Source: Comamonadaceae bacterium (GTDB taxonomy: Bacteria; Pseudomonadota; Gammaproteobacteria; Burkholderiales; Burkholderiaceae_C). Taken from it: a stretch of 64,000 nt of DNA. Below, in pieces: positions 35,524 to 62,819 of the stretch. Each line of letters starts with the position of its first letter. Position 1 is the stretch's first letter. Under the pieces are notes generated by a model, which was not told where the DNA came from, ran no database searches, and worked only from the letters and a program-made list of their open reading frames with translations. A program made the translations under genes and the position numbers. The stretch lies in NCBI GenBank assembly GCA_947373245.1, contig CANBWY010000002.1:1-64000 (forward strand), read 5' to 3'.

Positions 35524-35541
35524 CCGGAAATGGTGGTAGTT

Positions 35542-38607: not shown

Positions 38608-39070
38608 TTGTCCTCCTTCACAGACTCACAGTTATAGGGGGCTTCGTCCGAGGGACGACTAGGGCGATACTCGCATGCGGTTGCCGCTCACGCAGTCTAG
38701 AGACTTTCTAGTTCAAGCTTGCTCAATCATCCTCGATGATAGTTGCTGGCGGCCTAGACGATTCAGCGGCTGCTGCACTTGCATGCGGTCGTCCGACGCC
38801 TGAGTTCAGCAGAGGGCTAAGCCGTCCGCTGCGTGTCGCGTATCCGTCATCCTGAGTGGTCATCACAGCAGTAGCGCTGCTGGCCGAGCCGATGTCGGCA
38901 TGCGTCGCCGATGCCCTTCGCAGCGCGCCGATTTGGGTTTGAACCGAGGATCACGGCCCGATGGCGGTGGTAAGCTCGTCTTCAAGCCATAGAATTGGAA
39001 CAGCGAGGTTCCGCGCATGCGGAGGTTCGCTCTACGGGGCGGTCACGCAGCGATCAGGAGTTCGAACGGC

Positions 39071-40975: not shown

Positions 40976-41646
40976 CGCTCCTTCGCGTCTATGGCAACAA
41001 GGGAAAAGTTGAGAGTTTCCTGTTGGATTGGATGCAGCTCTACTTCCGCCGGTACACCGCTGACGATGCATCTCGTGCAAATCTGGCCCGGTGGTGCCTG
41101 AAAGTCTTGATGGGTGTCTCGGTCCACATGCACCTCAGGAACCTCACTTCGCTCTCCAAGTATCTGAAGGGCCAGCCGACCTTTGTTGATCTGGTAATCA
41201 GGGCTTTGGAAGATCCGGAGGTCAGCGACCATGGTCAGGAGGATGTCATCCGATTGCTGTACTCGATACCTGATGCCGAGGCAAGCAAGCGATCCGCGGA
41301 TCTCAGCAAGCTATCGGTGCACCGGGCGGATCGCGGCTGGCACGTGGGCGCCGTCGTTGAAGTCCTTACTCGCGTCGGGGCGTGGAATGAAGCCGTCGAG
41401 GCCATTGAATCGTCTTGGGAGGCGATCCCAGATACCGTGCCCATGAGGCGCATGAAGTGGTCCAGGCGGCTACACGTTGTGGCGGTGCAGTTCGAGGCTG
41501 CGGTTGCTGCAGGAGATCTGTCTCTGCAGGATGCGCTGAAGGCGGAGTGGGAAGGCCTATATCAATTGTTGAAGGAAGACCAAGAGAAATATGCAGAGAG
41601 ACGCAATCCTTTCCCAGGTGTTTTTCGCCCGAATTCAGGCAGTTGA
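40939..41646 (+). CDS. 3' part of the same HEAT-like protein (frameshifted)
   Basis: Open in frame 1 from 40921 (a stop lies at 40918-40920); no credible ATG near the junction (ORF track uses TTG 40945); same helical composition. Confidence 0.55.
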   Translation, partial: GELEQRAGRALLTLLRVYGNKGKVESFLLDWMQLYFRRYTADDASRANLARWCLKVLMGVSVHMHLRNLTSLSKYLKGQPTFVDLVIRALEDPEVSDHGQEDVIRLLYSIPDAEASKRSADLSKLSVHRADRGWHVGAVVEVLTRVGAWNEAVEAIESSWEAIPDTVPMRRMKWSRRLHVVAVQFEAAVAAGDLSLQDALKAEWEGLYQLLKEDQEKYAERRNPFPGVFRPNSGS

Positions 41647-43039
41647 AGCGCTCCGCAAGCTCGGCGGTGGCGAGGTCGTCAGCGCCGAGCTTTTACGCCA
41701 AATCTGCACCGAGTTGGATGATGCGTCTCTCAGGTATGGGCGGGCTTCGACCGCAACGGTCTACGGCGCTTTTTCGGCGCTCCTGCGCATCGTGCTGTCT
41801 CTGGCGGAGTGGCGGCAAGCAGTTCTCGACGCAGTTCCAGACGGTGACCGGTTCCTGCGCAGTGCAGTGGAGCGCCATCGTCTTTGGCTTAAGGAGTTTG
41901 GTAAGAAAGACGTCGCCAAGAGCCTCGTGGATGCGTCAGCCTCATTGCAGTCTGTCGCAACCATTGCCGATTTCGAGTCTATCTGCAAAACGCTGGCTGG
42001 CATTCCGTTGCCGATCGGTGTGTTTTCTGAGGAGAGGCCGCGCATTCCGGCCGGTCCGGAAAAAGTTGAAGAGCGCCCACGGCCTACGGAGCTCTCAGTG
42101 GCCTTCGTGAAGTTTCAGCTTGGTGGCCAACCAGCGGCCAACATCCACCACCTCGTCCCGCGCGAATTGCATGACATGGAGATCGAGGTCAGAGTCTCTC
42201 GATGGCCAGAGGGCGCCACGCACCTGGTGCTGACGCCGATCTCGGCGGAGCCCAATAGCACCTACGAGCTCTCCGAGTTCACGTTCACGAAGCCGTCCAC
42301 GGAGCCACCGTACACGCTCATCCAGACGGGTCGTGCTGCTCTCCAGATCGCACAGGGATTGAAATCGAGGCCATTCGAGTTCAAGTACACGGCGGCATTC
42401 CAACCCGCCAGCTCAGAGCAGCCCGTTGCTGTCGTCGGCCACCGTACGCTTTTGGTGGAGGGCTTCGACATACGGGCCAACTCGATTACCGGCTATCAGC
42501 CTGTCGACGAAAAGATCCTGTGGATCCGCGATCTGCTAAGACGGGAAGGCAGAGCAAATGCCGAGGAGCTGTCGGACATTCTTGAGCTACTGACCAGTCT
42601 GGGCAATCTTGCTGGGAGAGCAGTTCAAGATGCCGTGTTCGATGGCACGTGGTGCGAGAAGGAATTCCAAGCCCAGGTTCGTGAGGACCTTCGCCGGTCG
42701 CCCCGCATCGGGTCGGATCTGGAGGAGCACCCCGCGGCCGCAGGGGGCTTCACTGACTTGAGCCTTCGCGGAATCACGATCGAGCTCAAGAAGACGGGCA
42801 CGCGGATCAAACAGATGGAAGGCTGCCGCAAATATGTCGAGCAAGCTGCCAGCTACGCGGTGGCCAAAGGCAAGCGCGTAGCTCTGTTGTGCATTCTGGA
42901 TACCAGCGTCAAAAATTCTGCGCCTTGGTCGGCGGCCGACGGCATCGACGTTTTGATGTCAGCACCGCCAGCCAACGTGGCGGTCATCACGCTCGTCATC
43001 CAGGGGAACATCACTCGTCCGAGCAAGTTGTCCCGTTGA
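41591..43039 (+). CDS. Protein with C-terminal PD-(D/E)xK-type nuclease domain
   Basis: 482 aa; CEKEFQAQVREDLRRSP...GGFTDLSLRGITIELKKTGT...EGCRKYVEQAASYA = E...D-x(n)-ExK...Q pattern. Confidence 0.65.
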   Translation: MQRDAILSQVFFARIQAVEALRKLGGGEVVSAELLRQICTELDDASLRYGRASTATVYGAFSALLRIVLSLAEWRQAVLDAVPDGDRFLRSAVERHRLWLKEFGKKDVAKSLVDASASLQSVATIADFESICKTLAGIPLPIGVFSEERPRIPAGPEKVEERPRPTELSVAFVKFQLGGQPAANIHHLVPRELHDMEIEVRVSRWPEGATHLVLTPISAEPNSTYELSEFTFTKPSTEPPYTLIQTGRAALQIAQGLKSRPFEFKYTAAFQPASSEQPVAVVGHRTLLVEGFDIRANSITGYQPVDEKILWIRDLLRREGRANAEELSDILELLTSLGNLAGRAVQDAVFDGTWCEKEFQAQVREDLRRSPRIGSDLEEHPAAAGGFTDLSLRGITIELKKTGTRIKQMEGCRKYVEQAASYAVAKGKRVALLCILDTSVKNSAPWSAADGIDVLMSAPPANVAVITLVIQGNITRPSKLSR

Positions 43040-43571
43040 GGCCTTAGTCGCTTCGCTGGATGTGAAAAGCGCACGATGTCGTCAGTCAAGTTCCGGGGCC
43101 GAATAGGCAGCCCTTCGCAGGGTCTTGCTCGAGCCGCAGCTTTCCTTGGGGGCCTTGAAACTGCCCACATCGAACAGGGAGCCGAGATGCCGCAAAGGAG
43201 TCGTTGGTGAACTTCAGCAATCAGCCTAAAGCTGTCAAGTTACGGAAAACTTGGCTGTCCGGTTTGGGGCGCTCAACAAAGTGACATATGCCCAGAGGCG
43301 CTACACCAGACACATAAATTTTTGGCCCACTGGTGCTCATCGAAAACAGAAACACGCGCAGTGCTAGTTTAATTACCTGTCTTTCAATCATCGTCTAGCG
43401 TGTAGACTCTTGCTCGCGCCGTTGCATGGTCGGCGTGCTGCCCATCCCCAGGGCCCATAGGGCCACAGCAAAGTGGAATCGACCTGCGTTTTTCTGCCCT
43501 AAGGTTAGCTCTTTGTGAGCACCAGGGAAGGTGGGTGGGCGTCTCTGGTGCATATGCATAGAGGACAAACA

Positions 43572-45194
43572 ATGAACGATTCCACGCATGTCGAGCACCA
43601 GCTCGACACCATCCACCGTCAAGCCAAGCGTTTTGCGGTAAGGCTCAAACTACCAACCACTGCGGCCAAGACCATCCTGGCTCGGGCGTTCTACCGATGC
43701 GCTGAATGGCGTGATTTGGAAGCCCGTCTGAAGAGCCAAGATTTGGACAGACATATTCAAATGCTGACGGCTTTGCCTCGGTCAGACCAAGCCCGTTTGT
43801 ATTTCGCTGCGATTCGTTGCGACCTAGCCAAATCGTTGAGTCAGCACATGTTGACAAACTCAAACCTAGCGGGACTGATTGATCTCGTTCAAGAGGTCTT
43901 TGTCGTTGATTCAGTTCCTACAACACTTGATGATCTGGTGCCGACCCTCAAGGCCTCTGCCTGGCGCGCAACAAACATTGGTCCCGATCCATGGGCTGTG
44001 GTGGAGTCCAATATTGTGGTCAATGGAGCTTGCATCAGGCTGGTGGGCACGCGAACCTATTTGCCAAGGTACTACGACTTTGGTCCCAAGCACGAGTTCG
44101 GGGAGTACGCTGAGCCTGCTGGAGGAATGCTCCAAATCGTTTGGGCAGAACCGATGGCGTGGTATCAAGCTGCTCTGGACTACCTCGATGAACTAGACGC
44201 AGAGGATATAAAGTTTCCGGATGTTGAACTAACAAAAGAGATGTCTCAACATCAGGCTTGGTTCGAAGCCGCCCTCGTGGCTGTTGGCAATATTGCGGAG
44301 TACCGCGCTGGCGATAACGACCTTTTGCCAGTCGTTCTTGAGGATGGAAATTGCTACGTTGTTTTCGGATATCCAGTGAGAACACTGGAAACGAATCCGA
44401 CGAGTTTCACGACAGTTGAGCTTGCATCAACTAGCGACAACTTCAGTCAGGTCGTGATGTTGCACGAGAACCCTGTTTGCTTGGAATGGATTGCCTATGA
44501 TCAAAAGTGTGGGAAACATTCTGGCGAATTTGACGACTACTTCTTGACGCTGAAGGAGGCAATTTTTCGAGATGAATGTTTGCCTGTAACACCTCGCACT
44601 GATGGTCAACCAGGTTTGTTGTTCGTTCGTCCGGCTACTGAGTTCGACATTCGCCAGGAGTTGAAAGTTGACTTCACTTACCTCGCAAATGAAGTTGCGT
44701 TCGTAGTGAAAACATCTAATCTCACACTGAGCCGCAAGCTTCTTGACAAGGTGGCGAATCGTGATCTGATGGTTTATGCCTCTGAGGAACATCCGAGGTA
44801 CTTTGCTCAGTTTTTAGTGCCTCAAACTGAAGGCCCGCCCATGCTGAGCCTGTCGTTTGATTCCGAGAGCCCTAACTGGACGACGATGTCGAATCTTGTT
44901 CAGAGCTCATATTGGGAAGCAAAAGAGGACCAGTGGGAGCTCCTGGTAGAAGTTGTGCCAAAACTGATGAACTTGATCGACAGAATTGGCAAAAAGGCGC
45001 TGGACAGGGCGATGTGTCATGGTTTGATACAGCGCTTGCCAACTACGGTTTTGGATGAGCTTGAGCAGCCTCCTACGCGCTGTAAGCAAATTCCATCGGT
45101 ATCTAAAGAGATAGCCACCGCAATAAACAAGCCACTAGACGGTGACGGCCATCTCACTATGCGCTATATACGGAATTTACGGGACAACTTCTAG
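43572..45194 (+). CDS. Cargo protein of unknown function (540 aa)
   Basis: Intact ORF MNDSTHVEHQLDTIHRQAKRFAVRLKLPTTAAKTILARAFYRCAEWRDLEARL...; no catalytic motif recognised. Confidence 0.6.
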   Translation: MNDSTHVEHQLDTIHRQAKRFAVRLKLPTTAAKTILARAFYRCAEWRDLEARLKSQDLDRHIQMLTALPRSDQARLYFAAIRCDLAKSLSQHMLTNSNLAGLIDLVQEVFVVDSVPTTLDDLVPTLKASAWRATNIGPDPWAVVESNIVVNGACIRLVGTRTYLPRYYDFGPKHEFGEYAEPAGGMLQIVWAEPMAWYQAALDYLDELDAEDIKFPDVELTKEMSQHQAWFEAALVAVGNIAEYRAGDNDLLPVVLEDGNCYVVFGYPVRTLETNPTSFTTVELASTSDNFSQVVMLHENPVCLEWIAYDQKCGKHSGEFDDYFLTLKEAIFRDECLPVTPRTDGQPGLLFVRPATEFDIRQELKVDFTYLANEVAFVVKTSNLTLSRKLLDKVANRDLMVYASEEHPRYFAQFLVPQTEGPPMLSLSFDSESPNWTTMSNLVQSSYWEAKEDQWELLVEVVPKLMNLIDRIGKKALDRAMCHGLIQRLPTTVLDELEQPPTRCKQIPSVSKEIATAINKPLDGDGHLTMRYIRNLRDNF

Positions 45195-45342: not shown

Positions 45343-46674
45343 CTATGCATTAAATAATGGCAGTACACATTGCCTATCTCTTATTTCCGGAATTTTTGCC
45401 AAAGTTGAAGCAAGCAATTCTGGCTCCCACCGCTTAAGCCAACTCACAGATCCTTTGCACCGTAGGTGCACATCCGTTTTGGTTACATCGTGTGTTTCAT
45501 TTATCAGGGCTTCAATTTCAGCTAACGCTGCGACCTTTCTGTTTTGCCTGAGATTTGTCCCCCGTACATGTTGGGGTGAGCATTGTGCTTCTTTCATATA
45601 GCGTCTAATCGTTGCAACGGATACCTTTAGCTGCTGGGCCGCAGATTTAATTGTCTTTGCGTTTTTCACAATGGCTTGTACTTTTTCATCCGCTTGAAAC
45701 TCTTTCTCGATCCACAACTGACCTTGGCCATCGTCTTGCCAAATTAGCATCGCGTCTGGCTCGTGAAAACCTCGAACCACATCTTGTGTGGAAAATCCTT
45801 CAAAGGTAGCCACCCACAACATCATCCATAACAAAGGATGGCTAGCTCTTCGCTTGAGAAGAGTTTCGTAAATCCATTGTTTTTCAATCACCGATTGGAT
45901 CGAAGGTTCGACTTGTTTTACTGCTTCAGCCAAGCGTGTCAACGCAAACCACTGTTGAAGAATCTCGGAGGACACAGGTTTAATGGATGTCACTAAACCC
46001 ATGTCTCTCAAGCGTGAAAGTACAGCTCGCTTAATACCAACAAGATTGACGCGTTCCTTGCCTACCAAGCTACCAGCTAGCGCAGACAAATTACGCAGTG
46101 CCTGAATACATTCGTTGTTTAGCAACGGTTGGGACGTCGGGTTAGTGATTAAAGGAATCACCCATTCAGCTATATCTGGATTGAGCTTATTTAAGTACAA
46201 GTCATGTTCTACACACCACCAAGCCCCTGGCAATTGGTGAGGAAGTCGCCACCTTGGCATTGCGCCATCTGCAAGATCATTTTGAATGCAGCATTGGCAC
46301 CAACGCATTTCTACCTTGTCTAGGGTGCTGGCACGCATTCCAAATCGCGTTAGCCAAGGTGTTCGCACATTACTTTCAGCGCATCGGTCAAACTCTTCAC
46401 GCTGCTCATATCTCAAAAATGGATAGTAGGCCGCGAGAACAGTTCTTTGCAACAAAATGTCCTTTGTGTTTCCAAGGTGCTTGTTAGTTGCGATCCCGAA
46501 ATGTGCAAACCGAGTGCTAGTTGCCCATTCTTTGTAGGCATGTGATGCGCCAAACAACAGTCGCCCAGTGTCTTTAACGGAATACCCAACAATACGATGC
46601 ATCCTTGCTGCCCAAGAATACAAAGTCTCATCTCCACGCCATTGGGGGATGAGTTGCAGAGGTCTTACATGCAT
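45343..46674 (-). CDS. tniQ: TniQ/TnsD-family target-selection protein
   Basis: PLQLIPQWRGDETLYSWAARMHRI and zinc finger CQCCIQNDLADGAMPRWRLPHQLPGAWWCVEHDLYL; C-terminal HTH-like region. Confidence 0.85.
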   Translation of the reverse strand: MHVRPLQLIPQWRGDETLYSWAARMHRIVGYSVKDTGRLLFGASHAYKEWATSTRFAHFGIATNKHLGNTKDILLQRTVLAAYYPFLRYEQREEFDRCAESNVRTPWLTRFGMRASTLDKVEMRWCQCCIQNDLADGAMPRWRLPHQLPGAWWCVEHDLYLNKLNPDIAEWVIPLITNPTSQPLLNNECIQALRNLSALAGSLVGKERVNLVGIKRAVLSRLRDMGLVTSIKPVSSEILQQWFALTRLAEAVKQVEPSIQSVIEKQWIYETLLKRRASHPLLWMMLWVATFEGFSTQDVVRGFHEPDAMLIWQDDGQGQLWIEKEFQADEKVQAIVKNAKTIKSAAQQLKVSVATIRRYMKEAQCSPQHVRGTNLRQNRKVAALAEIEALINETHDVTKTDVHLRCKGSVSWLKRWEPELLASTLAKIPEIRDRQCVLPLFNA

Positions 46675-46678
46675 TCGG

Positions 46679-48115
46679 TTATTTTCTCGAACGTGTTTGC
46701 TTTGACTGCCGATTAACACTAGTTTCGTGAGTGAGCGCTTTAAGGTCGGAGATTAATTTTTTCTGCTCGGTCGTAGATTCAATTTTGGCGCTCATCTCAA
46801 AAACCTCTTGAACTGCTTTAGCTTCAACTGAAGATCGATGAGATGTTTTAGTTTGAGATGGTGTTGGTTTGTCTGCCAACCAGTAATTTCGCAATTGTTC
46901 GATCGGAAGATCTTGATAGGCCATCAGTGCTTTGATGTCTTTATTAGCTAGCGCTTTGTTGCGCTCTTTCACAACAGAAAATTTAGGTGAATGATTAAAA
47001 ACTTTTAGCACAAGCTCTGAAGTCACTTGTGACACGTTATTGACCAATGCCCATTCCATGACCTCGGAGCGCAAGCGTCCAAGATGCCTCGGCATGCCAC
47101 CTGTCAGCTGCCAGAGAAAAGTAGGCCAATCAGTGATATCTGGGTAAGTTGCTAGCGGTGAAAACGGAGCATCTGGTTCGTCAAGGAGGCTAGGAGCCCA
47201 AAGTCCTGGCATCCAAGATTTTCTCCATGTGTCGCTATCAGGGCCCAACTCTGGGAGCATCGTGAACCAGCCGCCCTCAGAAAATCGATCAACGTCTTGC
47301 GCATGCATGCGTAGCTCACGAAACGAAAGTGGATTTCCAATAATCAGAATCGGAATACCCCAATTCAAAATCCTCAAGAAAAAATTCAAGAAGTCACGTG
47401 AAAACGCTCTCGATCCAAGATTGTCTTCTTGCGCCTCTTCAATAATCAGCATGCCACAACGATGTTGCACCAGCAGTTGCATGACGTTGACGATTAAGGT
47501 CTCAACGCGACTAGTTGTCTTTACTAGGGCGCGGCAATAATTTGTTTCCAATACGGTGTCCATTGCGACCAAGATGGACACCAGTAATCCTTTTCGAGAT
47601 TGATCGGCTGGCATATGCACCTTGAGATATACCAATTGACGCAGTTTGAGCATGCCCCAATCGCCTTGAGGTTCATGGTCAACGACTTGAGGAAGTAGGG
47701 TAAGCACTCGATCAACGATGTGAGATTTACCGATGCCTGTAATACCTTCGATGATCATGCCCTTTGCTTGAATTGGATTCCATGGAATTTCGTCCACACT
47801 TCGTCCATGCCATTGCTGTGTTGAGTTGATCCAACGTTGGACCTCTGGCCAAATCGGATTGCGACGTTCTAGATTGCTGTACATGATGTTCAGGATGCGA
47901 TCTGAAATTTGTATCGCTTGGTGCGTAGGCACATAAATCTTTAAATATTGATCAGTCAGTCTGCGGCGATTTTCTCTAGCGACTGTGCACTTGCCCGCTT
48001 GAGGAATCGGTGAATGAATCAACATCTTGATCAGCTCTCTCGAATTGGAAAGCCAATTCGCGATTGAGCAAAGGCCCGGAGCTTGTAACAGTGGATTTAG
48101 TGGTACGTCAGACAT
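46679..48115 (-). CDS. tnsC: TnsC-like AAA transposition regulator
   Basis: Walker A IIEGITGIGKSHIV, Walker B MLIIEEAQE, position between tnsB and tniQ. Confidence 0.85.
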   Translation of the reverse strand: MSDVPLNPLLQAPGLCSIANWLSNSRELIKMLIHSPIPQAGKCTVARENRRRLTDQYLKIYVPTHQAIQISDRILNIMYSNLERRNPIWPEVQRWINSTQQWHGRSVDEIPWNPIQAKGMIIEGITGIGKSHIVDRVLTLLPQVVDHEPQGDWGMLKLRQLVYLKVHMPADQSRKGLLVSILVAMDTVLETNYCRALVKTTSRVETLIVNVMQLLVQHRCGMLIIEEAQEDNLGSRAFSRDFLNFFLRILNWGIPILIIGNPLSFRELRMHAQDVDRFSEGGWFTMLPELGPDSDTWRKSWMPGLWAPSLLDEPDAPFSPLATYPDITDWPTFLWQLTGGMPRHLGRLRSEVMEWALVNNVSQVTSELVLKVFNHSPKFSVVKERNKALANKDIKALMAYQDLPIEQLRNYWLADKPTPSQTKTSHRSSVEAKAVQEVFEMSAKIESTTEQKKLISDLKALTHETSVNRQSKQTRSRK

Positions 48116-50405
48116 TAGTACCTCGGTTTTGTTCTTCATACAGCTGGGCTGCAATATTTAGCCAATGATCATCATTTGAGTTGGCCGCGGTTTGAGGTGG
48201 TGACTCAAAAATGCCAGTCGTTCGATTTATTTGATCTGGTTGAAGCGGTTTCAACGGATCCTCTTTAAGCGGTACGCCAGTCAGGACTGCTTTTTCCATA
48301 TCTGTCATGAGTCGAATGTCACGACGCATTTCAGTCTTTGTAGGTTTGCCATGTTGCTTGATCGCTTCTTGTCTAACCTTTCGTCCTTCTTTGTAGCGAT
48401 GGTCAATGCTTGCCAGTTTCTCGGAAAGGTGTTGTGTTTCGATTTTGTTAGCGAGAAAAGCAGATAGCTTGTCATCCTCAGTGATCGCTAGCCAATCGAT
48501 CAACGTCACTCCCGCTAAATCATGGTCGCCTGAGACCAAATCAAATCGTCGTAATCCTCCGATGTTGGCCCAAATGTGGGATAGGTCTATCGGATTCAGG
48601 TGAACTTCCAGTTTGTGAACTTTCTGTCGGCTTTTATGCAACAGGCCATGAGTGAGTAGAAATTCGTTGCGATAAACCAACTTTTTAATCAGTTGTTTAC
48701 CGCCTGATCCTGGGACAAAGACATGAATTCCGTCACCATGCATGGACGCTTCAAATCGCGGAAGACACGTCACACGCAGGATATCAATGTCCACAGGTGA
48801 TGAGGACATATAGTGGTGCTCCATGAGCCACTCCACGACGCCACGACGCGTTCTTTCCTTGAGACCTGGATACATCTCTTGTCTTGGCGGGTCTATGTAG
48901 TCTTTGTTGTTGTGGTGCAAAATTTCTTTGAGCAGCAAGTGCATGTAGTCGTCAAACCTCAATCCAGCAATTTGTGCACGGTCTTTTTCGCCGCGAATTT
49001 TTTGTCTGCCCATCGTTGTTCCTGGCATCAAGTGATCGTTTCTTTTTTGTCGTTGGTGGTGGCCAGATTCATTCGGAGATTTGTTGATCGCGTCATATGC
49101 TTTGCCGTATGAAGCGGTCATGCTCATTTGCTCTAAGGTGTACATCGCTAGCTTCCCTTTGCCTTCACCGTTGTCTGTTTCAAACGTGTTGAAAGTGCAG
49201 CTATACCAGTCCCTAGGTTCTATGGTGTGGCCAAATCGCGCGCAAAGAGCAACCTTGTCTGAGGCGGCATTAAGAATTGCAAGTAGCGCTGTCGTTGCAC
49301 TAGCAGCTTCAAATCCAACATAAATTCCGAATATGTAATCAATGGCTGAACCCAGCACTTCAGTCCGCCAAGGTGACTTCAATCGTTTAAGTGGATGAAT
49401 TGATGAAATCAAAGTTTGGTCAGTGGATGTGCTGTCTATATAAGCAACGCCATTCAACGTTTCATATCGATCCCTTGCTTTATTCAAGCGTCTTTGAATT
49501 TCGTCACGAGCCGGAGATAGTCCTCTACGGATGTCAATAGATCGCAAGGCTTGCGGATCTTTTAATCCCCAATATCTAAACATTTGTGGACTGATATCGA
49601 AGGCTTCTGGTTTGAGCTCAATCCTTACGCCATGCTTTGATGGCGTGACTGCTTTCACAAAATAGTCGTTGCGAGTTTTAGCAAGTGCAACTTGATCAGA
49701 AACGCCTTGTCTCTTGTGCCTTTTCCAGCCCAACATTAGTTTTGATCGTGTATCCGGTGTGAGATATGGACGGCTCTTTTTTTGATTTTCAATTCGTGCG
49801 GCAATGGTCGGGCGCCCAGTATCTGTTGTGCTGAACTTCTGACTACCAGGCCCACCGCAATTTGCATATCCAGGCATAAGTGCTCGTTTGTCGGCCATTC
49901 CAAGTAAGTACGCATGAAGAGCACGTCTGATTTTTGTTGAGGATTTCAGTCCCAAATCTTGAGCGCGCAAATTTGGCCAGCTCTGAAAATTTCGATCGGT
50001 AAGAATTTCTTGAATTGTTCGGGTTTCGACAAAAGGCCGAATTAATTCAAATGAGTTGTCGCGTATTGTTTTCCATTTAAATAGATTTCTTCTGTGCCGC
50101 ATCAGAGGGCTACTGTTTGTGAATTCAGTTTCCATCTGAGCGTCAACCCATAACCAATGTTCTGGAGCCTTGAAGTCAACTAAAGAAAATTTTTCAGAAC
50201 TTCCTAAGTCCTTGGCTAAATCAATAGCTGACATGAAACGTGGTGCAGCAACATAGTTATTCTGTTTTCCGTTCTTTGATTTGGGAAACGGAACGCAGAC
50301 CACCAAACCTTCAGCCATGTCTACGTAGATGATCCGAAAAGTATGGATAGCTTTTCCAACGGGCGTTTTTTGTACGATGCACTTGCCAATCCAACTTTGA
50401 CTCAT
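48108..50405 (-). CDS. tnsB: TnsB-like DDE transposase
   Basis: 765 aa; catalytic D in YIDSTSTDQT, D in FETDNGEGKG, E exactly 35 residues later in NKSPNESGHHQRQKRND (D-x34-E). Confidence 0.88.
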   Translation of the reverse strand: MSQSWIGKCIVQKTPVGKAIHTFRIIYVDMAEGLVVCVPFPKSKNGKQNNYVAAPRFMSAIDLAKDLGSSEKFSLVDFKAPEHWLWVDAQMETEFTNSSPLMRHRRNLFKWKTIRDNSFELIRPFVETRTIQEILTDRNFQSWPNLRAQDLGLKSSTKIRRALHAYLLGMADKRALMPGYANCGGPGSQKFSTTDTGRPTIAARIENQKKSRPYLTPDTRSKLMLGWKRHKRQGVSDQVALAKTRNDYFVKAVTPSKHGVRIELKPEAFDISPQMFRYWGLKDPQALRSIDIRRGLSPARDEIQRRLNKARDRYETLNGVAYIDSTSTDQTLISSIHPLKRLKSPWRTEVLGSAIDYIFGIYVGFEAASATTALLAILNAASDKVALCARFGHTIEPRDWYSCTFNTFETDNGEGKGKLAMYTLEQMSMTASYGKAYDAINKSPNESGHHQRQKRNDHLMPGTTMGRQKIRGEKDRAQIAGLRFDDYMHLLLKEILHHNNKDYIDPPRQEMYPGLKERTRRGVVEWLMEHHYMSSSPVDIDILRVTCLPRFEASMHGDGIHVFVPGSGGKQLIKKLVYRNEFLLTHGLLHKSRQKVHKLEVHLNPIDLSHIWANIGGLRRFDLVSGDHDLAGVTLIDWLAITEDDKLSAFLANKIETQHLSEKLASIDHRYKEGRKVRQEAIKQHGKPTKTEMRRDIRLMTDMEKAVLTGVPLKEDPLKPLQPDQINRTTGIFESPPQTAANSNDDHWLNIAAQLYEEQNRGTNV

Positions 50406-51397
50406 GCTGAGACCCCTAAAAAATGTTTAGCCAGCTTGTTTGCACATTGACTCCCGCCTAGCCGAATTGGCTGCAACATAGAAATTCGACTGCTCATGTC
50501 GATATCAATCAATCGAAGCCATGAGCCAACCCGCCATAAGGTGGCGGCTTCTTCGGGAGCGCCAACTGCTAAGCCTGCATGTGAAATGCACAAGTGCAGT
50601 GGTTTGCCGTCGCGTGTCTGATTTAAATGCTCACTGAAATCCTCCAACTGTGCAGAGCCTGCCCATCGTTGAATTTCATTTTTTGTGGGTTGATAAGTTT
50701 GCAAATTTTTGGTGACGATCGAGCTGAAACTACTTCCTCCTTCTCGCAGATGTCTTGCGCCAACAGCGCGACAGTAGATTTCATCTAGAGTCGCTCTTTC
50801 TTGTGCCCTAGGGCTGCGAGTATGAATTTCATCAGGCTTGCAGCTGATACCAATGTGATGTGTTTGACCATGCCAAACAACCGTTGCCATGATGTCCAAC
50901 GAAGCGATGTAAGGCACATCACTACCAACAAAATTTCCATGCTCAACTCCGGCATCACGAGCTATATCTAACAATCCAGTTGTACGAGCATTTGTTCGCT
51001 CATCAATCGGATGCTGATGTTCAGTTGGCCACATTGGCAAACACTCACGCAATTCAACGGCACCTAGATAGGCTAGTTGTAATGCAGTGTGATGCTCTAA
51101 CTTGCTCAGGAAGTGGTGGTTACGTCTGTGAATGCTTAGAGATGCAAAAACCTGATGGCTAACGGGACTTGAAAAACCTCTCGTAATTCGAATCCAAGGC
51201 GAATATTCTTCATGACGGCCTTGTCCTCGGCCATCACGAATCCATTTCAAAACTTGATTCAGCTTTCGTTCGTTGAAGCTTCTTTTTAATTTTTTGTGGG
51301 ACACACGACTTACGCGGTCCAGCAATCGATATTCATCTAGGTATTGATTTACAAAACCAACCCTTTCCCCAAACGAGTTGTCAGTAATTTCAAACAT
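50402..51397 (-). CDS. tnsA: TnsA-like endonuclease
   Basis: LSKLEHHTALQLAYLG...PYIASLDIMATVVWHGQTHHIGISCKPDE matches TnsA N-terminal nuclease layout; ATGA overlap with tnsB. Confidence 0.8.
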   Translation of the reverse strand: MFEITDNSFGERVGFVNQYLDEYRLLDRVSRVSHKKLKRSFNERKLNQVLKWIRDGRGQGRHEEYSPWIRITRGFSSPVSHQVFASLSIHRRNHHFLSKLEHHTALQLAYLGAVELRECLPMWPTEHQHPIDERTNARTTGLLDIARDAGVEHGNFVGSDVPYIASLDIMATVVWHGQTHHIGISCKPDEIHTRSPRAQERATLDEIYCRAVGARHLREGGSSFSSIVTKNLQTYQPTKNEIQRWAGSAQLEDFSEHLNQTRDGKPLHLCISHAGLAVGAPEEAATLWRVGSWLRLIDIDMSSRISMLQPIRLGGSQCANKLAKHFLGVSA

Positions 51398-51545
51398 ACA
51401 GTTCCCCTCCAAACGCTAAATACAGTTAGCTTTAAGTTGGTTTTTGCAATGGCTGCGGCCATGCATTACGAGGGAATACAGATGATCAGGTTGGCGTGTT
51501 CTAAAAATTTGCGCGCAGGTATTTACACACTTGCCTCATTTCTTG

Positions 51546-51557
51546 GCAAATATTTGC
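51546..51557. promoter_or_regulatory. Perfect 12-bp palindrome GCAAATATTTGC in the tnsA/regulator intergenic region (possible operator)
   Basis: Sequence-level palindrome upstream of tnsA. Confidence 0.35.
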
Positions 51558-51640
51558 AAATTTCAGAAAGAGTAGCGCTAGATGCGGTCTGTACCCCATT
51601 GACAGGGAGTCGAACTGGTCAGAGAATTAAGGTGCTTAGG

Positions 51641-51695
51641 TTTGGTTCTCTAACCAAATCGTTCCCGGCGGGCCTTGCGCCCGCCGTTTTCTTTT
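51641..51695 (+). terminator. Two tandem hairpins ending in a + strand Rho-independent terminator (possible 3' end of an ncRNA)
   Basis: TTTGGTT-CTCT-AACCAAA (51641-51658) then CGGCGGGC-CTTGC-GCCCGCCG (51666-51686) then TTTTCTTTT. Confidence 0.6.
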
Positions 51696-52131
51696 ATGTC
51701 ATGGCCATCTCCATTAGCTGGTTAGGCTTGGTCAGAGAAGACACCAAGCGTGCACTTTGACTAATTTGACGCAAGCTTGCGACTAGTCCGTTTCTTTGTT
51801 CAGGGCCGAGGTGATGCCACGCGTGAAGACTGGCAGATAACAGTGCTACCTCTGATTTGCTAGCACCTCTATGGTCCAGTATTCCAATTATTCGATCGTG
51901 GTGTGCTGCCCATTGCAGTTGATCGATTTCATCGTTGGTTAGCTTGAAAAGCTCACAGGCTTTTTGGAGCATTCGATCATCTAGAGGGCCACGTGTCCCT
52001 TTTTCTATCCCGCAAAGTACAGCCGCATCTAACCCAAGATCTATCGCTACTGACTTTTGCATGAGCCCGCGACTTGATCTCACCTGTTTGAGCACGGGTG
52101 GGAAAAGTAGGTTTGCATGCCGTTGATTCAT
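51694..52131 (-). CDS. Helix-turn-helix (XRE-like) regulator
   Basis: LKQVRSSRGLMQKSVAIDLGLDAAVLCGIEKGTRGPLDDRMLQKACELFKL. Confidence 0.75.
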   Translation of the reverse strand: MNQRHANLLFPPVLKQVRSSRGLMQKSVAIDLGLDAAVLCGIEKGTRGPLDDRMLQKACELFKLTNDEIDQLQWAAHHDRIIGILDHRGASKSEVALLSASLHAWHHLGPEQRNGLVASLRQISQSARLVSSLTKPNQLMEMAMT

Positions 52132-52240
52132 TCTCTTGATGTTTTGATGTCAATGATTTTGGGGAATCGTATAAAGTTTTTTCTTGTTGCACAACACGCA
52201 GCGTGGTGTCGTTTCGCTAGAAAATTTGCAGATCAAAAAA

Positions 52241-53284
52241 ATGCTCGAATCAACAGGGTTAAAGGAAAAATCATGTGCACAACGTATCTTGTTGTCGGTA
52301 AATAGGCGGCAAATTTTGCATGTCGAAAAAATTAATGCCTACCGAATTCAAATTTGGTTGAAAGAAATTTTTCAGCGCACAGGTGAAACTCGCGTGTTCG
52401 CGCTCGCATCATTGCTTGATCCAAAGTCAAATTGGCGAGATGATTTTGGTTCAGTACATCAGTCGAAGTGGTATGGCTTTACAAAACACAAAGTTGTGCC
52501 ATCAAAAACTTTGGCTACGAGAGTGAGAGACCTGCTTCCGCAGCTTGAGTTTGATCTTCACCATCCAGCGTGGTCATTGATCTTGCGTCCTAGCGTATCT
52601 CAGCGAACGCTTGAAAGACAGGTGGCGAAGATGTCGCATGAATGGCGTAGCAATCTTAAGAAAATCAAAGCTACTCCTTTTGAATTTCGTCGCGTATGTT
52701 TGCCGCTCGTAGACGAATTCAACTTAATGAATTGTTCGTATCTTGATGCGTATTTGCTGTTTGAGATCGCACGACGGTATGCAACAGGTAAAGATCAAAA
52801 AAAAGCAGAGAACTTGATGTATGTATTAATGGCTTTGCCATTGTTATATGTCGATGATCCGATTTGGATGCTTCTAAATGACAGTCAGCATCATAATTTT
52901 TTGGACTTGCTTGACGAAACATCAAGGACTGCAAATCGCAATTTGCAATTCCCTAATGCTGAGAGAGCTATTGCGATACGCATACAAAAAATGCTTCTTC
53001 AGAAGAGCACCAAAAAACAGGCAGGACTCAAAACCTCGGCTTCATTGCGCCGCCGATATCTTGCAAAATTTTTGAGTAGAGATATTGACTCGGTTTACGT
53101 GACAGCCACGTCTGCATTTTTTTCACAATCTTCTATTGGTCGAGTATTGCGGTTACTCATGAATGATGTTGAACACTATTCAGAAGTTGCCTGGAAAAAT
53201 GCGTGGAAAAAGTTGCGTACTGACTCTGCGTACGTTGAGTTCACTAAGTGTTTTGAAGTATTGAGTTCTGAAAAACTAGACTGA
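52241..53284 (+). CDS. Unknown protein, putative accessory transposition factor coupled to second TniQ
   Basis: Intact ORF immediately upstream of tniQ2, same low-GC character as the tns module; no recognised motif. Upstream in-frame start 52184 possible. Confidence 0.55.
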   Translation: MLESTGLKEKSCAQRILLSVNRRQILHVEKINAYRIQIWLKEIFQRTGETRVFALASLLDPKSNWRDDFGSVHQSKWYGFTKHKVVPSKTLATRVRDLLPQLEFDLHHPAWSLILRPSVSQRTLERQVAKMSHEWRSNLKKIKATPFEFRRVCLPLVDEFNLMNCSYLDAYLLFEIARRYATGKDQKKAENLMYVLMALPLLYVDDPIWMLLNDSQHHNFLDLLDETSRTANRNLQFPNAERAIAIRIQKMLLQKSTKKQAGLKTSASLRRRYLAKFLSRDIDSVYVTATSAFFSQSSIGRVLRLLMNDVEHYSEVAWKNAWKKLRTDSAYVEFTKCFEVLSSEKLD

Positions 53285-53302
53285 GCAAACGTTGCGTACA
53301 TT

Positions 53303-54319
53303 ATGTTTTCAAATATACCTGCGCTATTTTTAGATGAGTGTGCACGAGGTTATATGCTTCGCATCACTGCATTGCATGCAAAAAAGAATGTCTTTGTCAC
53401 CAAGCTACTGCCCGCCCTTGTACGTGTTACTGGCTTAGATCTAGAGACGTTGCTTAAGAAGCATACACACATGGGCTACATGCGATATGTGAGCACTGAG
53501 TTTTTTGGGCAAGACATTTCTAGGCACGGAGATGTTATGACAAACACCAGAGTTTTATCTGGAGTGACGCCGTTGAGTGGTGCGCGAATGTGTGTTGATT
53601 GCACTAAAGATGACGCAGACCGGTACGGGGTTAGCTATTGGAGACGTATACATCAACTTCCTGGTATCGATTTTTGTATTCGTCATGGCAAAGGACTATC
53701 TAATTTCCGTGCGTATGTTGATATACACAATTTACCAATGAAATTTCTGAAGGAACCGACGATAGATGAAGAGGGTATTTATGAATTGCTTCAGTGCGAA
53801 GCCTATCAACGATTTCTGGTTTTAAGTGAAATTGCATTGAACGCCGTGGTTCCCATTGCTACAGGGTCAATGGGTAGAGCATTTATAAAACGATTCAATG
53901 CTCTTCACTTTAGTAGTCGAACTTCGTTGAAAGAACTTTTACTTTGTACGTTTCCACACGAATGGCTTGAGCAGCATTTTCGAATTCAGGGAGGTACAGA
54001 ACGCGTCTGGCCAACGATAGATTACTTTTCGAAGATCAACCATCAAATTCAGGCGATCCCATTTTATTTGCTCGTTATGGCTTTGCTTTGGGATGATCCG
54101 AATGAGGCTGTGCAAGCTTGTCTGCAGGAAGAACATTCTTTCGATCAAGTCGGAGCGCGTCTTGCACTACAGGATGTACTCCGAGGTCGATCAATCACGT
54201 GGGCATGTCGGATACACAAAATTGAATTCAGAGATTTTGAAATTGCCTTGCAAAAGTTTTTTGCAGAAAATCGACCTGTAACCAATGATTTTCTAAGTAG
54301 TGGAGTAGCTTGCAAATAA
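53303..54319 (+). CDS. Second TniQ/TnsD-family protein
   Basis: TniQ zinc finger MCVDCTKDDADRYGVSYWRRIHQLPGIDFCIRHGKGL. Confidence 0.82.
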   Translation: MFSNIPALFLDECARGYMLRITALHAKKNVFVTKLLPALVRVTGLDLETLLKKHTHMGYMRYVSTEFFGQDISRHGDVMTNTRVLSGVTPLSGARMCVDCTKDDADRYGVSYWRRIHQLPGIDFCIRHGKGLSNFRAYVDIHNLPMKFLKEPTIDEEGIYELLQCEAYQRFLVLSEIALNAVVPIATGSMGRAFIKRFNALHFSSRTSLKELLLCTFPHEWLEQHFRIQGGTERVWPTIDYFSKINHQIQAIPFYLLVMALLWDDPNEAVQACLQEEHSFDQVGARLALQDVLRGRSITWACRIHKIEFRDFEIALQKFFAENRPVTNDFLSSGVACK

Positions 54320-54956: not shown

Positions 54957-56501
54957 ATGCTCGACGACATCAAAAAGACCCTCTGGGCATCTGCCGACAA
55001 ACTGCGCGCCAACATGGACGCTGCCGAATACAAGCACTTGGTACTCGGACTCATCTTCATCAAATACATCAGCGACAGTTTTGAAGCCCACAAAGCTAAC
55101 CTGACCGCGCGCCTGCAAAACCCCAAAGACGAGCTGTACTTTGGTGGCGCGTCAGAAGCCGACATTGTTGCCGAGCTAGAAGACCGCGATTACTTCACAG
55201 CTGCCAACGTGTTTTGGGTTCCCGAAGGCGCACGCTGGACACAGCTTCGCGCTGCAGCACCCCAGCCCGACGTTGGCAAACGCATCGACGATGCGCTCAC
55301 CCTCATTGAGCAAGAAAACCCGCGCCTCAAAGGCATCCTCGACAAACGCTTTGCCCGCGCTCAATTGCCAGACGGCAAGCTGGGCGAGTTGGTCAACCTG
55401 ATCTCCACCATCGGCTTTGGTGACGACCCATCGAAGGCCCGCGACATCTTGGGCCAGGTGTACGAATATTTCTTGGGCATGTTTGCCAGCGCCGAAGGCA
55501 AGCGGGGCGGGCAGTTCTACACGCCCGCCAGCATTGTCAAAACGCTGGTGGCCGTGCTCTCGCCCAGCAAAGGCCAGATTTACGACCCGTGCTGCGGGTC
55601 GAGCGGCATGTTCGTGCAGTCTGAAAAGTTCATCGAAGACCACGGCGGCAAGCTGGGCGATGTGTCCATCTACGGCCAAGAGGCCAACCCCACCACCTGG
55701 CGCTTGGCGGCCATGAACCTCGTCATTCGGGGCATGGACTACAACCTGGGCAAAGAACCCGCCGACACCTTCACCCGCAACCAACACCCCGACCTGCGGG
55801 CGGACTACGTGCTGGCCAATCCGCCCTTCAACATCAGCGACTGGTGGCACGCCAGCCTGGACGGCGACGCCCGCTGGGAATACGGCACGCCCCCGCAAGG
55901 CAACGCCAACTACGCCTGGCTGCAACACATCCTGCACCACCTCAAGCCCACGGGCCGGGCGGGCATTGTGCTGGCCAACGGCAGCATGAGCAGCAGCCAG
56001 AACAGCGAAGGCCAAATCCGCGCCGCCATGGTCGATGCCGACGTGGTGGAGGTGATGGTGGCCTTGCCCGGCCAGTTGTTCTTCAACACGCAGATTCCCG
56101 CGTGCCTGTGGTTCTTGGCCAAACAGAAAAAGCGCAAAGGCGAAGTGCTGTTCATCGACGCCCGCAAACAAGCCACCATGATCAGCCGCGTGCAAAGCGA
56201 GCTGACCGACGAAGTGATCGAGCGCATCAGCCAAACCGTGGCCGCGTGGCGATCAGGTACTGACGATTACCAAGACATTGCAGGTTTTTGCCGCAGCGTG
56301 CCGCTAGCCGAAATCGCCCAACACTGCCATGTGCTCACCCCAGGCCGCTATGTGGGTGCGGAAGAAGTGGAAGACGACGACGAAGCCTTTGCCGACAAGA
56401 TGCAAACGCTCACCGCGAAGCTGGCCGAGCAAATGGTCAAAGGCGCAGAACTGGACGCACTAATTCGCCAGAAGCTGGGGGGGCTGGGGTATGAGTTCTG
56501 A
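54957..56501 (+). CDS. hsdM: Type I restriction-modification methyltransferase subunit
   Basis: GQFYTPASIVKTLVAVLSP, PCCGSSGMFVQSEKF, ADYVLANPPFNISDWW (NPPF). Confidence 0.96.
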   Translation: MLDDIKKTLWASADKLRANMDAAEYKHLVLGLIFIKYISDSFEAHKANLTARLQNPKDELYFGGASEADIVAELEDRDYFTAANVFWVPEGARWTQLRAAAPQPDVGKRIDDALTLIEQENPRLKGILDKRFARAQLPDGKLGELVNLISTIGFGDDPSKARDILGQVYEYFLGMFASAEGKRGGQFYTPASIVKTLVAVLSPSKGQIYDPCCGSSGMFVQSEKFIEDHGGKLGDVSIYGQEANPTTWRLAAMNLVIRGMDYNLGKEPADTFTRNQHPDLRADYVLANPPFNISDWWHASLDGDARWEYGTPPQGNANYAWLQHILHHLKPTGRAGIVLANGSMSSSQNSEGQIRAAMVDADVVEVMVALPGQLFFNTQIPACLWFLAKQKKRKGEVLFIDARKQATMISRVQSELTDEVIERISQTVAAWRSGTDDYQDIAGFCRSVPLAEIAQHCHVLTPGRYVGAEEVEDDDEAFADKMQTLTAKLAEQMVKGAELDALIRQKLGGLGYEF

Positions 56502-57789
56502 ATTGTCCCCGCTCTACCGTTTTGCCGATCTCCTTGCAGAACCATTGCGGAATGGCATCTACAAAACTAAAGAGCACCACGGGCATGGCGTCAAAGTAGT
56601 GAATATGGGAGAACTCTTCGGGCACCCTAGGCTGAGCGATATACCCATGAAAAGAGTCGGACTCACAATAGCGGAGATATCGAAATCAAGTCTTAGGGAG
56701 GGTGACCTGCTGTTCGCAAGGCGCTCCCTAGTAGCTTCAGGCGCAGGCAAATGCACTATTGTCAAAAAAATAGTTGAAGCGACCACTTTCGAAAGCTCAA
56801 TCATTAGAGCTCGTCCAAATGGAAGCCTTGCTGATAGCGACTATCTCTACTACTTTTTCGCATCTCCGCAAGGAAAGGAGCTTATGGGCACCATCTTGCG
56901 GCAGGTTGCTGTTTCCGGCATTACTGGCGGTGATCTTGCGGAATTAAAAATTCCGTTGCCTAACCTCAATGAGCAACGAAGACGGGCTTCAGTGCTTCAG
57001 GCGCTAGACGACCGCATTACCCTCCTACGCGAAATCAACACCACCCTCGAAGCCATCGCCCAAGCCCTGTTCAAGTCCTGGTTCGTGGACTTCGACCCCG
57101 TCCAAGCCAAGATGCAAGGCCGCGCCCCCGAAGGCATGGACGAAGCCACCGCCGCCCTGTTTCCTGACAGCTTTGAAGAGTCGGAGTTGGGGGCTGTGCC
57201 GAAGGGGTGGAAATGGCTGCCGCTGAATGTTGCTTATGAAATCTATCCGACACGAAAGCTGAAGAAAGGTGAGACTGCGCCTTACTTGGATATGGCAGGT
57301 GTCCAAACGCAAGGGCACTCAGTCGATGGCGTGATTCAACGTGAAATGGGCTCGGGGACAAAGTTCATCAACGGTGACACCTTGTTGGCGCGCATCACAC
57401 CATGTCTTGAAAACGGCAAGACGGCATTCGTCGATTTTTTACCCGCTGATACAACGGGATGGGGCTCGACAGAGTTTGTTGTTTTGAGACCCAAAGACCC
57501 GCTGCCGCCGTACCACGCCTATTTGTTAGCTCGACATCCTGCATTTAGAGAGCATGCAATCAGAAGCATGTCCGGCACCAGTGGTCGTCAGCGCATTCAA
57601 AACGATGTGCTGAGCCAATTCTTTGTCACTGTACCAAATGAATCTGTTGCTAAAGCGTTCTCAGAATTGGTGGTGGCTATACATGAAGCTATCTGCGAAG
57701 GGCACCAGAGATCGCAAACACTTTCAGCTTTACGGAACAATTTACTACCCCGTCTTATTTCTGGTCACTTGAAGCTCAAGGCTGGATGA
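56491..57789 (+). CDS. hsdS: Type I restriction-modification specificity subunit
   Basis: Two TRD-type halves, LNEQRRRASVLQALDDRITLLREINTTLEAIAQALFKSWFVDFDPV. Confidence 0.94.
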   Translation: MSSELSPLYRFADLLAEPLRNGIYKTKEHHGHGVKVVNMGELFGHPRLSDIPMKRVGLTIAEISKSSLREGDLLFARRSLVASGAGKCTIVKKIVEATTFESSIIRARPNGSLADSDYLYYFFASPQGKELMGTILRQVAVSGITGGDLAELKIPLPNLNEQRRRASVLQALDDRITLLREINTTLEAIAQALFKSWFVDFDPVQAKMQGRAPEGMDEATAALFPDSFEESELGAVPKGWKWLPLNVAYEIYPTRKLKKGETAPYLDMAGVQTQGHSVDGVIQREMGSGTKFINGDTLLARITPCLENGKTAFVDFLPADTTGWGSTEFVVLRPKDPLPPYHAYLLARHPAFREHAIRSMSGTSGRQRIQNDVLSQFFVTVPNESVAKAFSELVVAIHEAICEGHQRSQTLSALRNNLLPRLISGHLKLKAG

Positions 57790-57793
57790 CCAT

Positions 57794-58486
57794 ATGAAAA
57801 AAATAACACTTTCAAATTTCGGTCACTTTTTGGCAATTCTGCTTGTGCTGATGTCGGTGTTTGTCATGGGCTACTTTGGATATCAGTACTACGTGGAACC
57901 CAAGTCAGAGGTTGCGAATGTTTTCACAGGGGCCGGAGCAGTTTTGGCTGCGGCAGTTTCTGCTCTTGTTTCCTTTCGAACTGTTACGATTATTGAAGAG
58001 TCTCAACGGCCTTTCCCATACCCCTACATCGATATTAAAAGTCGTTATGGTTTGTCCCTCATAAAAATCAAAAATGCAGGAGGCTCAGCAGCGCATCGTG
58101 TTTATATTGAGTGGGAGGATGGCACTCCCTCGCTTCGTCAAGGAGCGGATAGTCAGGCTCAACCTATTCATTTCGCAGGCGATGAGGCGCACGCTATATC
58201 GATACTCATGCCAGGGGACGAGCAGTCCACCATGCTTGGTGCCCACCATTGGGTCGCAGAACAACTTAATAGCAATCAGCCCAAGCTGAAAGGTAATGTT
58301 GTCTTTCAGGACGTCAAGGGCAATATTTGCCGAATTCCGTTTTTCATTGACACATCGTTTTATGAATGGGCCTTGGCTGATGAAACGGAGCTACTAAAAG
58401 CGCAGAGAGCAATGACTGAGTTACCACAGGCGCTTGTCAACATTAATCAGTCGCTTTCAAGAATCAACGCTACCTTGGGGAAATAA
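57794..58486 (+). CDS. Membrane protein of unknown function inside the hsd locus
   Basis: 230 aa, two N-terminal hydrophobic segments, then soluble domain. Confidence 0.6.
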   Translation: MKKITLSNFGHFLAILLVLMSVFVMGYFGYQYYVEPKSEVANVFTGAGAVLAAAVSALVSFRTVTIIEESQRPFPYPYIDIKSRYGLSLIKIKNAGGSAAHRVYIEWEDGTPSLRQGADSQAQPIHFAGDEAHAISILMPGDEQSTMLGAHHWVAEQLNSNQPKLKGNVVFQDVKGNICRIPFFIDTSFYEWALADETELLKAQRAMTELPQALVNINQSLSRINATLGK

Positions 58487-58509
58487 TGAAACCAACTGGC
58501 CTCCTCGAA

Positions 58510-58850
58510 ACACGGGGCGATTCACGCTAGGTGAAACTTGGAAGCATGAAGCCAACGACTTCACGCCTTGGTTGGCCGATCAGTAGTTCGTGGTCACCGA
58601 GCATTTGGTGGGGTGGGTTTGATGGGCCAGATCCTCACCTACGCGGCAGGCACTGGGGCTAAGAAGGTGATTGGGGTGGCCGAGTCTTTCCAGCCCGAGC
58701 ATGTGGCGGCGCTGGAGTTTTTGAACCAAAACACGATGGGCCTGCCAAGCAGCGGCAGTTCAAGTTGTGCCGAACTGGTGCCGTATCGCCACTTGGCGTC
58801 AGGACAGCCCGATTGAAGACGAAACTCAATGGGAAAGAACGTGCCGTGAA
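58510..58850 (+). pseudogene. Decayed DUF4268-like (restriction/nuclease-like) gene remnant
   Basis: Pieces GRFTLGETWKHEANDFTPWLADQ(stop) and MGQILTYAAGTGAKKVIGVAESFQPEHVAALEFLNQNT in different frames resemble DUF4268 proteins (..HEAxDFTxWLA.., ..LTYAAGxxAKxVIWVAExFxxEHxAALxxLN..). Confidence 0.6.
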
Positions 58851-58982
58851 AACCCTCGACAGGCGTTTCAATAGCTACCGTCGGTCTTTTTTATCAGACT
58901 CGAAAATAGCTAAAATGAATTAATCATTCGGATTGGGTAGTTCAGATGGTTATTTTTATTTTGTATATACAATGAGGTAAAT

Positions 58983-59276
58983 ATGAAGAACTTAGTGGTC
59001 TCGGCAGCAATAGAAACTAAGCTTCATAAAAAGCACCAAGTGTCGATCAAAGAGGTTGAGCAATGTTTCTACAACAGGGACGGAAAGCTGCTTTATGACA
59101 CCCGAGCAAAGACCAAAACCATTCCACCCACTCTCTGGTTTATTGCGTTAACCAATAAAAATCGCAAGCTCAAAATTGTGTATATACAAAAAGGGATGCA
59201 ACTGATACTCAAAACAGCATACGAGCCCAACGATGTTGAGTTGGCCATCTATGAACGTTTTGGCGCTGCGGCCTGA
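58983..59276 (+). CDS. BrnT-like toxin candidate
   Basis: 97 aa basic protein, KLHKKHQVSIKEVEQCFYN...LKIVYIQKGMQLILKTAYEPNDVELAIYERF. Confidence 0.55.
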   Translation: MKNLVVSAAIETKLHKKHQVSIKEVEQCFYNRDGKLLYDTRAKTKTIPPTLWFIALTNKNRKLKIVYIQKGMQLILKTAYEPNDVELAIYERFGAAA

Positions 59277-59301
59277 CGCAGTGCAACCAAGGAGAGTTCA
59301 A

Positions 59302-59634
59302 ATGACAGTGAAAAAAAATAGAAATACAGAGCAAGCATGGGACGAACGCAAGTTAGGGGCAGAGGCCGAGTTTGTGGGCGTGGCCGATGCGTCGCATGAA
59401 GAGGCGTTACAAGAGGCTTTGGAATTGCAAGCCATCTCCATTCGATTGCCCAAAGATTTGGTGCGTAACTACAAGCTGATTGCCGAGTTTCATGGCATTG
59501 GCTATCAGCCTTTGATGCGTGATGTGTTGCAACGTTTTGTAGCCCCTGAGTTAAAGCACATTTTGGAAACGCAGCACAAGGCCGCTAAAGCGATGGAGAA
59601 ACCAGGGCTTATCCCAAGACGTAAAGCGGCCTGA
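59302..59634 (+). CDS. CopG/BrnA-like antitoxin candidate
   Basis: [39 protein letters not shown] (ribbon-helix-helix-like), 3' partner of the toxin. Confidence 0.65.
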
Positions 59635-62600: not shown

Positions 62601-62819
62601 CTGCAAGACGAAACGCTGAAGAAGATTGCCCAAGAACTCACGCAAAACCTGCGCGAGAACTTGACCGTGGATTGGTCCGAGCGCGAGAGCGTGAGGGCTA
62701 AGCTGCGATTGATGGTGAAGCGGATATTGAAAAAATACAAATACCCACCAGATCAAGCCGACAACGCCGTACAGCTGGTGCTGGAGCAGGCTGAGGCGTT
62801 GGGGGAAGAGTGGACTTAA
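59634..62819 (+). CDS. hsdR: Type I restriction endonuclease subunit R
   Basis: 1061 aa; [13 protein letters not shown] (ExK nuclease), [30 protein letters not shown]. Confidence 0.96.

Follow-up and report, generated by a model that had tools for sequence, protein, structure and literature searches.

The first 64,000 nucleotides of contig CANBWY010000002.1 of a Comamonadaceae bacterium (the window) contain a Tn7-like transposon inserted upstream of a gene for a metallo-β-lactamase (MBL)-fold hydrolase. In addition to tnsA, tnsB, tnsC and the gene for a TnsD-like TniQ protein (TniQ1), the transposon carries a divergently oriented gene pair that encodes a protein without family match, designated here the partner, and a second, short TniQ protein (TniQ2). 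The partner gene is present in Tn7-like and in IS21-like elements and, as far as the sequences tell, a transposon control module therefore seems to pass between transposon families. This sharing was missed by an earlier note on the same DNA. Taken as a whole, the chances are marginally better than even that the element is a Tn7-like transposon in which TniQ1 mediates homing to the MBL gene and the partner and TniQ2 constitute a second target selector.

The earlier note had placed the seven genes of a Tn7-like module at 45343-54319, and all seven are found there. The tns operon on the minus strand encodes the TnsA endonuclease (50402-51412), the TnsB DDE transposase (48108-50405), the TnsC AAA+ ATPase (46679-48154; Pfam AAA_22/TniB) and TniQ1 (45343-46719; 458 aa), in which a TniQ domain (Pfam 1.8e-12) is followed by a C-terminal helix-turn-helix (HTH)/TnsD-like region (Pfam TnsD 5.4e-07 at residues 344-439). 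The genes are as tightly packed as had been described: the junction of tnsA and tnsB is ATGA, and the probable start of tnsC, an ATG near 48115, results in an 8-nt overlap with tnsB. All of the motifs named earlier are seen, namely the D-x34-E pair of TnsB (D411 and E446, invariant across four homologues, with the first catalytic D also conserved), Walker A (GITGIGKS) and Walker B (LIIEEAQE) of TnsC, and HQLPG in both TniQ1 and TniQ2. In the TnsA alignment, E106, D173 and S190-C-K192 are conserved. TnsA and TnsB have no match in Pfam or NCBIfam, and TnsB does not match the NCBIfam IS21 model. TnsB does match Tn7 TnsB (7pik), at 1.5e-16 as a single sequence and at 2.6e-28 as a profile, and profiles from four homologues match Tn7 TnsA (1t0f, 2.5e-14), TnsC (8glu, 1e-30) and, in the case of the TniQ set, TnsD (8glu_X, 3.5e-16). 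The proposed Tn7-like identity holds; by these profiles the element is close to canonical Tn7, with TnsA and TnsB of the canonical type. Upstream of tnsA lies the gene of an XRE/HTH-like regulator of 145 aa (51694-52131, minus strand; Pfam HTH_31 3.3e-05, below the cut-off), which is kept in all four elements of this Tn7-like family. All seven module genes are syntenic in Limnohabitans sp. T6-20, which makes it clear that their grouping is no accident; identities between the two elements are 66% for TnsA, 69% for TnsB, 64% for TnsC, 63% for TniQ1 and 53% for the regulator. Scans of the window revealed neither Cas families nor CRISPR-like spaced repeats, in agreement with the earlier note, and the TnsE family had no match among the open reading frames (ORFs) scanned or in the 13 partner homologues.

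The module is real but forms only the middle of a larger element that extends over 30,173 bp from 35534 to 65706, with its far end past the window (in-window part 35534-64000). In a genome of the same genus (G009), collinearity with the window runs to 35532 and begins again at contig position 65723; this empty-site relative lacks the whole stretch, which supports a single insertion. Both breakpoints hold TGATAACAATGTTTAGAACT or its reverse complement, a perfect 20-bp terminal inverted repeat, and exact matches to the 19-bp end pattern occur only at the two element ends across the 2.29-Mb genome. The MBL-proximal end (35534-35722, plus strand) begins with the 7 nt TGGTAGT followed by TGATAACAATGTTTAGAACT and has further predicted TnsB-like sites (AATGTTTnGAA) at 35568, 35611, 35691 and 35711; at the far end, 65706 on the contig (C2), GTTCTAAACATTGTTATCA is followed by GTTACCT (L031 1681-1706), and TnsB-like sites are predicted at 65570 and 65623. 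Both inverted ends thus bear several TnsB-like sites, by sequence a Tn7 trait. The ends were first set at TGATAAC, where no target duplication was evident; after a shift of 7 nt outward, to the termini used here, perfect 5-bp duplications appeared in two relatives. By this terminus rule Limnohabitans sp. T6-20 contains an element of 23,588 bp flanked on both sides by TTATA and Aquabacterium lacunae one of 43,340 bp flanked by TCAAG. The earlier note had looked to exact ends and a 5-bp duplication as a check. The ends could be placed and the duplications are present in these relatives, but the window element itself is flanked by AATGG and GGTAG, without a clean 5-bp duplication. This counts against our explanation and implies either that the duplication has eroded or that one junction has been rearranged.

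The gene at the insertion site (34885-35523, minus strand) lies outside the element and encodes a host gloB-like hydrolase (Pfam Lactamase_B 1.2e-34; best NCBIfam match GSH_gloB, 6.1e-31, under the model cut-off). It was found in 26 of 41 relatives, with matches that begin at an internal Met. The window element begins 10 bp upstream of its start codon; the elements of Limnohabitans and Aquabacterium, oriented alike, lie 12 and 8 bp, respectively, upstream of this gene, and in all three the tns operon reads toward the MBL gene. Among 84 genomes of the genus, 7 contain the end motif with up to 2 mismatches, in 6 of them directly in front of the MBL gene, where most cases are remnants devoid of tns genes, and no genome other than that of the window has a match to its TnsB at E <1e-20. 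In all, insertions at the MBL gene comprise the three complete elements and five other genomes. Because of this recurrent, oriented insertion, the site upstream of the MBL gene is, on sequence grounds, a real attachment site, at which complete elements are rare; the chromosomal attachment site supposed in the earlier note therefore exists and can be located. No report linking this gene to Tn7-like elements was found in the literature covered (subscription papers, preprints and ISfinder notes lay outside its scope), which suggests that the site is new for Tn7-like transposons within that literature. In Limnohabitans T6-20 (G468:C1 950515-950594, L055) two element ends are arranged in tandem at the MBL site and share TTATA, which indicates that the same site has been hit repeatedly and that target immunity is not absolute. 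In another genome (G488:C11, L076 5187-11916), both element ends are present at the MBL site and bound 6.7 kb without recognizable tns genes, suggestive of a decayed element or of one moved in trans. A further MBL-site remnant (G015, L037 5930-6396) has, close to the element end, a fragment resembling TniQ2 (55 aa, 44%).

The partner (52241-53284, plus strand) has 347 aa when counted from the ATG at 52241, in an ORF that opens at TTG 52184, and is divergent from the tns operon. Downstream of it lies tniQ2 (53303-54319, plus strand; 338 aa; Pfam TniQ 2.5e-10), which is probably co-transcribed with the partner. The partner shares 36% and TniQ2 34-36% identity with the Limnohabitans T6-20 counterparts, a faster divergence than that of TniQ1. 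Four elements of this family have an intact partner at the same place and in the same orientation. Among the carriers of the module are also Aquabacterium and an Acidovorax plasmid, in which the partner is divergent from the regulator and the second TniQ differs in kind or orientation. The plasmid-borne relative, a single case, is compatible with a second mode of targeting directed at mobile DNA. In one genome (G374) the partner is divergent from a second, distinct operon that resembles TnsA/TnsB/TnsC/TniQ, as identified only by gene order, an AAA_22 match and a weak integrase-core match. A relative of this operon (TnsB 51%) was observed on a Xanthomonas campestris plasmid (L080 3201-10378), where the divergent position is taken by a gene of 355 aa; this gene (3201-4268) was considered as a partner homologue and rejected, since no homology was detectable. 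The partner itself has no match in Pfam, NCBIfam, PHROGs or PDB, and a Pfam search with 13 family members yielded no match and hence none to tyrosine recombinases. Scans of viral contigs turned up no relatives.

The distribution of the partner became apparent in translated searches of plasmids, which revealed a family of hypothetical proteins of ~350 aa related to it. In 12 of the 13 distinct IS21-side plasmid loci examined, the partner gene and istA-istB point away from each other, in most cases with a small ORF separating them; the exception, from Acinetobacter, adjoins IS3. The assignment to IS21 rests on the NCBIfam IS21 model, which IstA matches above the cut-off. In two Pseudomonas elements, terminal repeats of the same sequence (TTGCATTC...CTTGACC) lie beyond istB on one side and beyond the partner on the other and enclose only istB, istA, the small ORF where annotated, and the partner, without cargo; compact IS21-like elements of this kind measure 4.3 kb. 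In two other IS21-like copies that are 94% identical, the similarity ends sharply 220 bp beyond the partner. The position of the repeats and this sharp end indicate that the partner belongs to the IS21-like element itself. A hidden Markov model (HMM) built only from IS21-side partners recovered all five Tn7-side partners with 40.8-161.6 bits, the window partner scoring 40.8 bits (E 1.3e-11 at Z=2000), compared with 5.7 bits for the best of 2,000 shuffled decoys and 1.9 for unrelated proteins of the same region. Leave-one-out homology tests agree with this result. In a maximum-likelihood tree of the partners, Tn7-like and IS21-like labels are interleaved, and the branches with strong support require, on their own, a minimum of two switches of transposon type; for example, the Tn7-like locus L067 groups with the IS21-like locus L010 at 100/100. 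Several branches of the tree are long and its remaining topology is unsure. The small ORF between istA and the partner (87-117 aa in L003, L006, L012, L013, L014 and L081; weakly PrtN-like in two) is perhaps the counterpart of the HTH regulator. The same literature contains no description of a partner common to both transposon families, and only one paper joins IS21, Tn7-like elements and a target selector (Faure et al. 2023; PMC10293859). Short TniQ proteins are argued there to mark elements with an additional selector, and TnsF was found in this way; TnsF homologues were shown in the non-Tn7 transposon Tsy, and the paper states that no target selector had been reported for IS21.

Tn7 is cut and pasted by TnsAB, and the homologous proteins of the window element would bind the element ends and do likewise. 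TniQ1 would home to the MBL gene by recognizing its conserved 5' end and recruiting TnsC, a role assigned to it because of its TnsD-type C-terminus and its conservation between elements at the same site. The two targeting modes that the earlier note had read from the two TniQ proteins remain a hypothesis. The divergent pair would provide a second pathway of target selection, in which a different target (mobile DNA, perhaps) is recognized by the partner and TniQ2, the short protein, links the partner to TnsC. Control of the divergent promoters is probably the task of the HTH-like regulator. In IS21-like elements, which have no TniQ, a protein of the partner family would engage the AAA+ helper IstB directly. 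That the partner and TniQ2 form a second selector is about an even proposition in our analysis; it is suggested because a short TniQ beside an unknown gene is the very signature by which TnsF was discovered (PMC10293859). Somewhat less confidence, short of even, is placed in the broader proposal that the family of the partner supplies a target selector that can be carried from one type of transposon to another, acting by way of a short TniQ in Tn7-like elements and directly with IstB in IS21-like ones.

Besides the imperfect flanks of the window element, several observations weigh against these proposals. No DNA-binding domain was recognized in the partner. The AlphaFold2 models are too poor to use (pLDDT, the predicted local distance difference test score, was 54.6 for the partner with a three-row alignment and 37.1 for TniQ2 with two rows), and a fold search with the partner model returned nothing below E 0.75. 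L067, a second Tn7-like locus with a partner, has only one TniQ, which means that TniQ2 is not obligatory, and the small TniQ of Acidovorax faces the partner convergently rather than lying downstream of it. Finally, the constant divergent position of the partner fits a regulator. According to the main rival explanation, which we regard as rather unlikely but deserving serious weight, the partner regulates transposition, either through transcription of the divergent operon or through assembly of the transposase and the AAA+ ATPase, and would be useful to any transposase-ATPase pair. Such a role agrees with the divergence from the transposase operon in the five Tn7-like loci examined and in 12 of the 13 IS21-side loci, beside an HTH-like or small ORF, with the presence of the partner in elements that lack TniQ, and with the location of the two 94%-identical IS21-like copies in different surroundings, which implies that no fixed site is dictated there. 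Arguing against it is the short TniQ that directly follows the partner in the window and in Limnohabitans, both proteins evolving fast, unlike the regulator. Moreover, the element already possesses an HTH regulator as a separate gene. The partner N-terminus (KW-x-RY...P...PGS) by eye resembled an XRE HTH, but a profile comparison of the partner with that regulator gave a probability of 0.6%, and the resemblance is not claimed.

In an improbable variant, the partner and TniQ2 select the MBL site and TniQ1 serves the other pathway. Both occur in every MBL-site element, and the remnant in G015 has retained its TniQ2-like fragment close to the end; however, it is TniQ1 that bears the TnsD-like C-terminal region and is the more conserved protein, and the IS21-side homologues of the partner are located away from the MBL site. 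Least probable is that the pair plays no part in transposition and is cargo or a relic, as its rapid divergence and low G+C region might indicate, since both genes are intact at the same position and orientation in four related elements and the partner resides inside compact, cargo-free IS21-like elements.

Cargo flanks the tns genes on both sides and, as the earlier note had expected of a Tn7-like element, it includes defense systems. On the MBL-proximal side are PARIS-like AriB (36156-37073; PADLOC 1.8e-22) and AriA (37066-38607; 4.1e-24) on the minus strand, followed on the plus strand by Olokun-like OloA (39017-40975; 1.5e-40) and OloB (41591-43039; 2.9e-51) and an adjoining ORF of 559 aa without family match (43515-45194), possibly a new defense gene. 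Beyond tniQ2, the plus strand encodes a type I restriction-modification system (54957-62819) with HsdM (54957-56501), HsdS (56491-57789) and HsdR (59634-62819). Of the two ORFs between HsdS and HsdR (57794-58486 and 59233-59634), one has no family and one is CopG-antitoxin-like. The system was considered as a separate element, but internal ends sought near 54.3 kb were not found. At 63148 begins a primase-like gene, and downstream of it lies a helicase gene (plus strand, to 65525 on the contig), a pair that from the sequence and the ORF list looks TOTE-like.

Target choice governs the spread of transposons and makes Tn7-type systems useful for the insertion of large DNA. Were the partner a selector, IS21-like and Tn7-like transposons would have traded a compact module guided by protein; IS21, for which no selector had been reported, would have its first known one, and the partner would be the protein-only equivalent of the CRISPR effectors that Tn7 has recruited. 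Were it a regulator, one control device would act on two classes of transposase. In either case, the element marks a conserved attachment site in freshwater Burkholderiales where defense cargo is loaded.

With canonical Tn7 (TnsABC with TnsD and TnsE) the element has in common homologous TnsA, TnsB, TnsC and TniQ/TnsD, TnsA as a separate protein, the 5-bp duplication (in its relatives), a fixed chromosomal site used in one orientation and, plausibly, a second pathway. Unlike Tn7, which inserts downstream of glmS, it is located upstream of the MBL hydrolase gene, its tns genes lie in mid-element between cargo, and a second TniQ and an unnamed partner take the place of TnsE, for which it has no match. 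The ~1,000 dual TniQ-TnsD loci (PMC10293859) likewise combine one TniQ of >400 aa with a short one, but in the window TniQ2 belongs to a divergent unit with the partner and is not in tandem with TniQ1. CRISPR-associated Tn7-like transposons also employ a short TniQ as likely adaptor, whereas neither cas genes nor a CRISPR array was found in the window element. IS21 (IstA/IstB) contains partner homologues, also divergent from the transposase-ATPase operon, and differs in having no TnsA and no TniQ. The closest parallel is provided by the TniQ-TnsF pair of Tn6022 and by Tsy, with a short TniQ beside an unknown gene and a selector family common to Tn7-like and non-Tn7 elements. TnsF targets comM, not the MBL gene, and is characterized by an inactivated tyrosine-recombinase domain and zinc fingers, for which 13 members of the partner family gave no Pfam match and the partner model is too poor to serve as evidence; in contrast to Tn6022 and Tsy, the window element shares its partner with IS21-like elements and also possesses the TnsD-like TniQ1.

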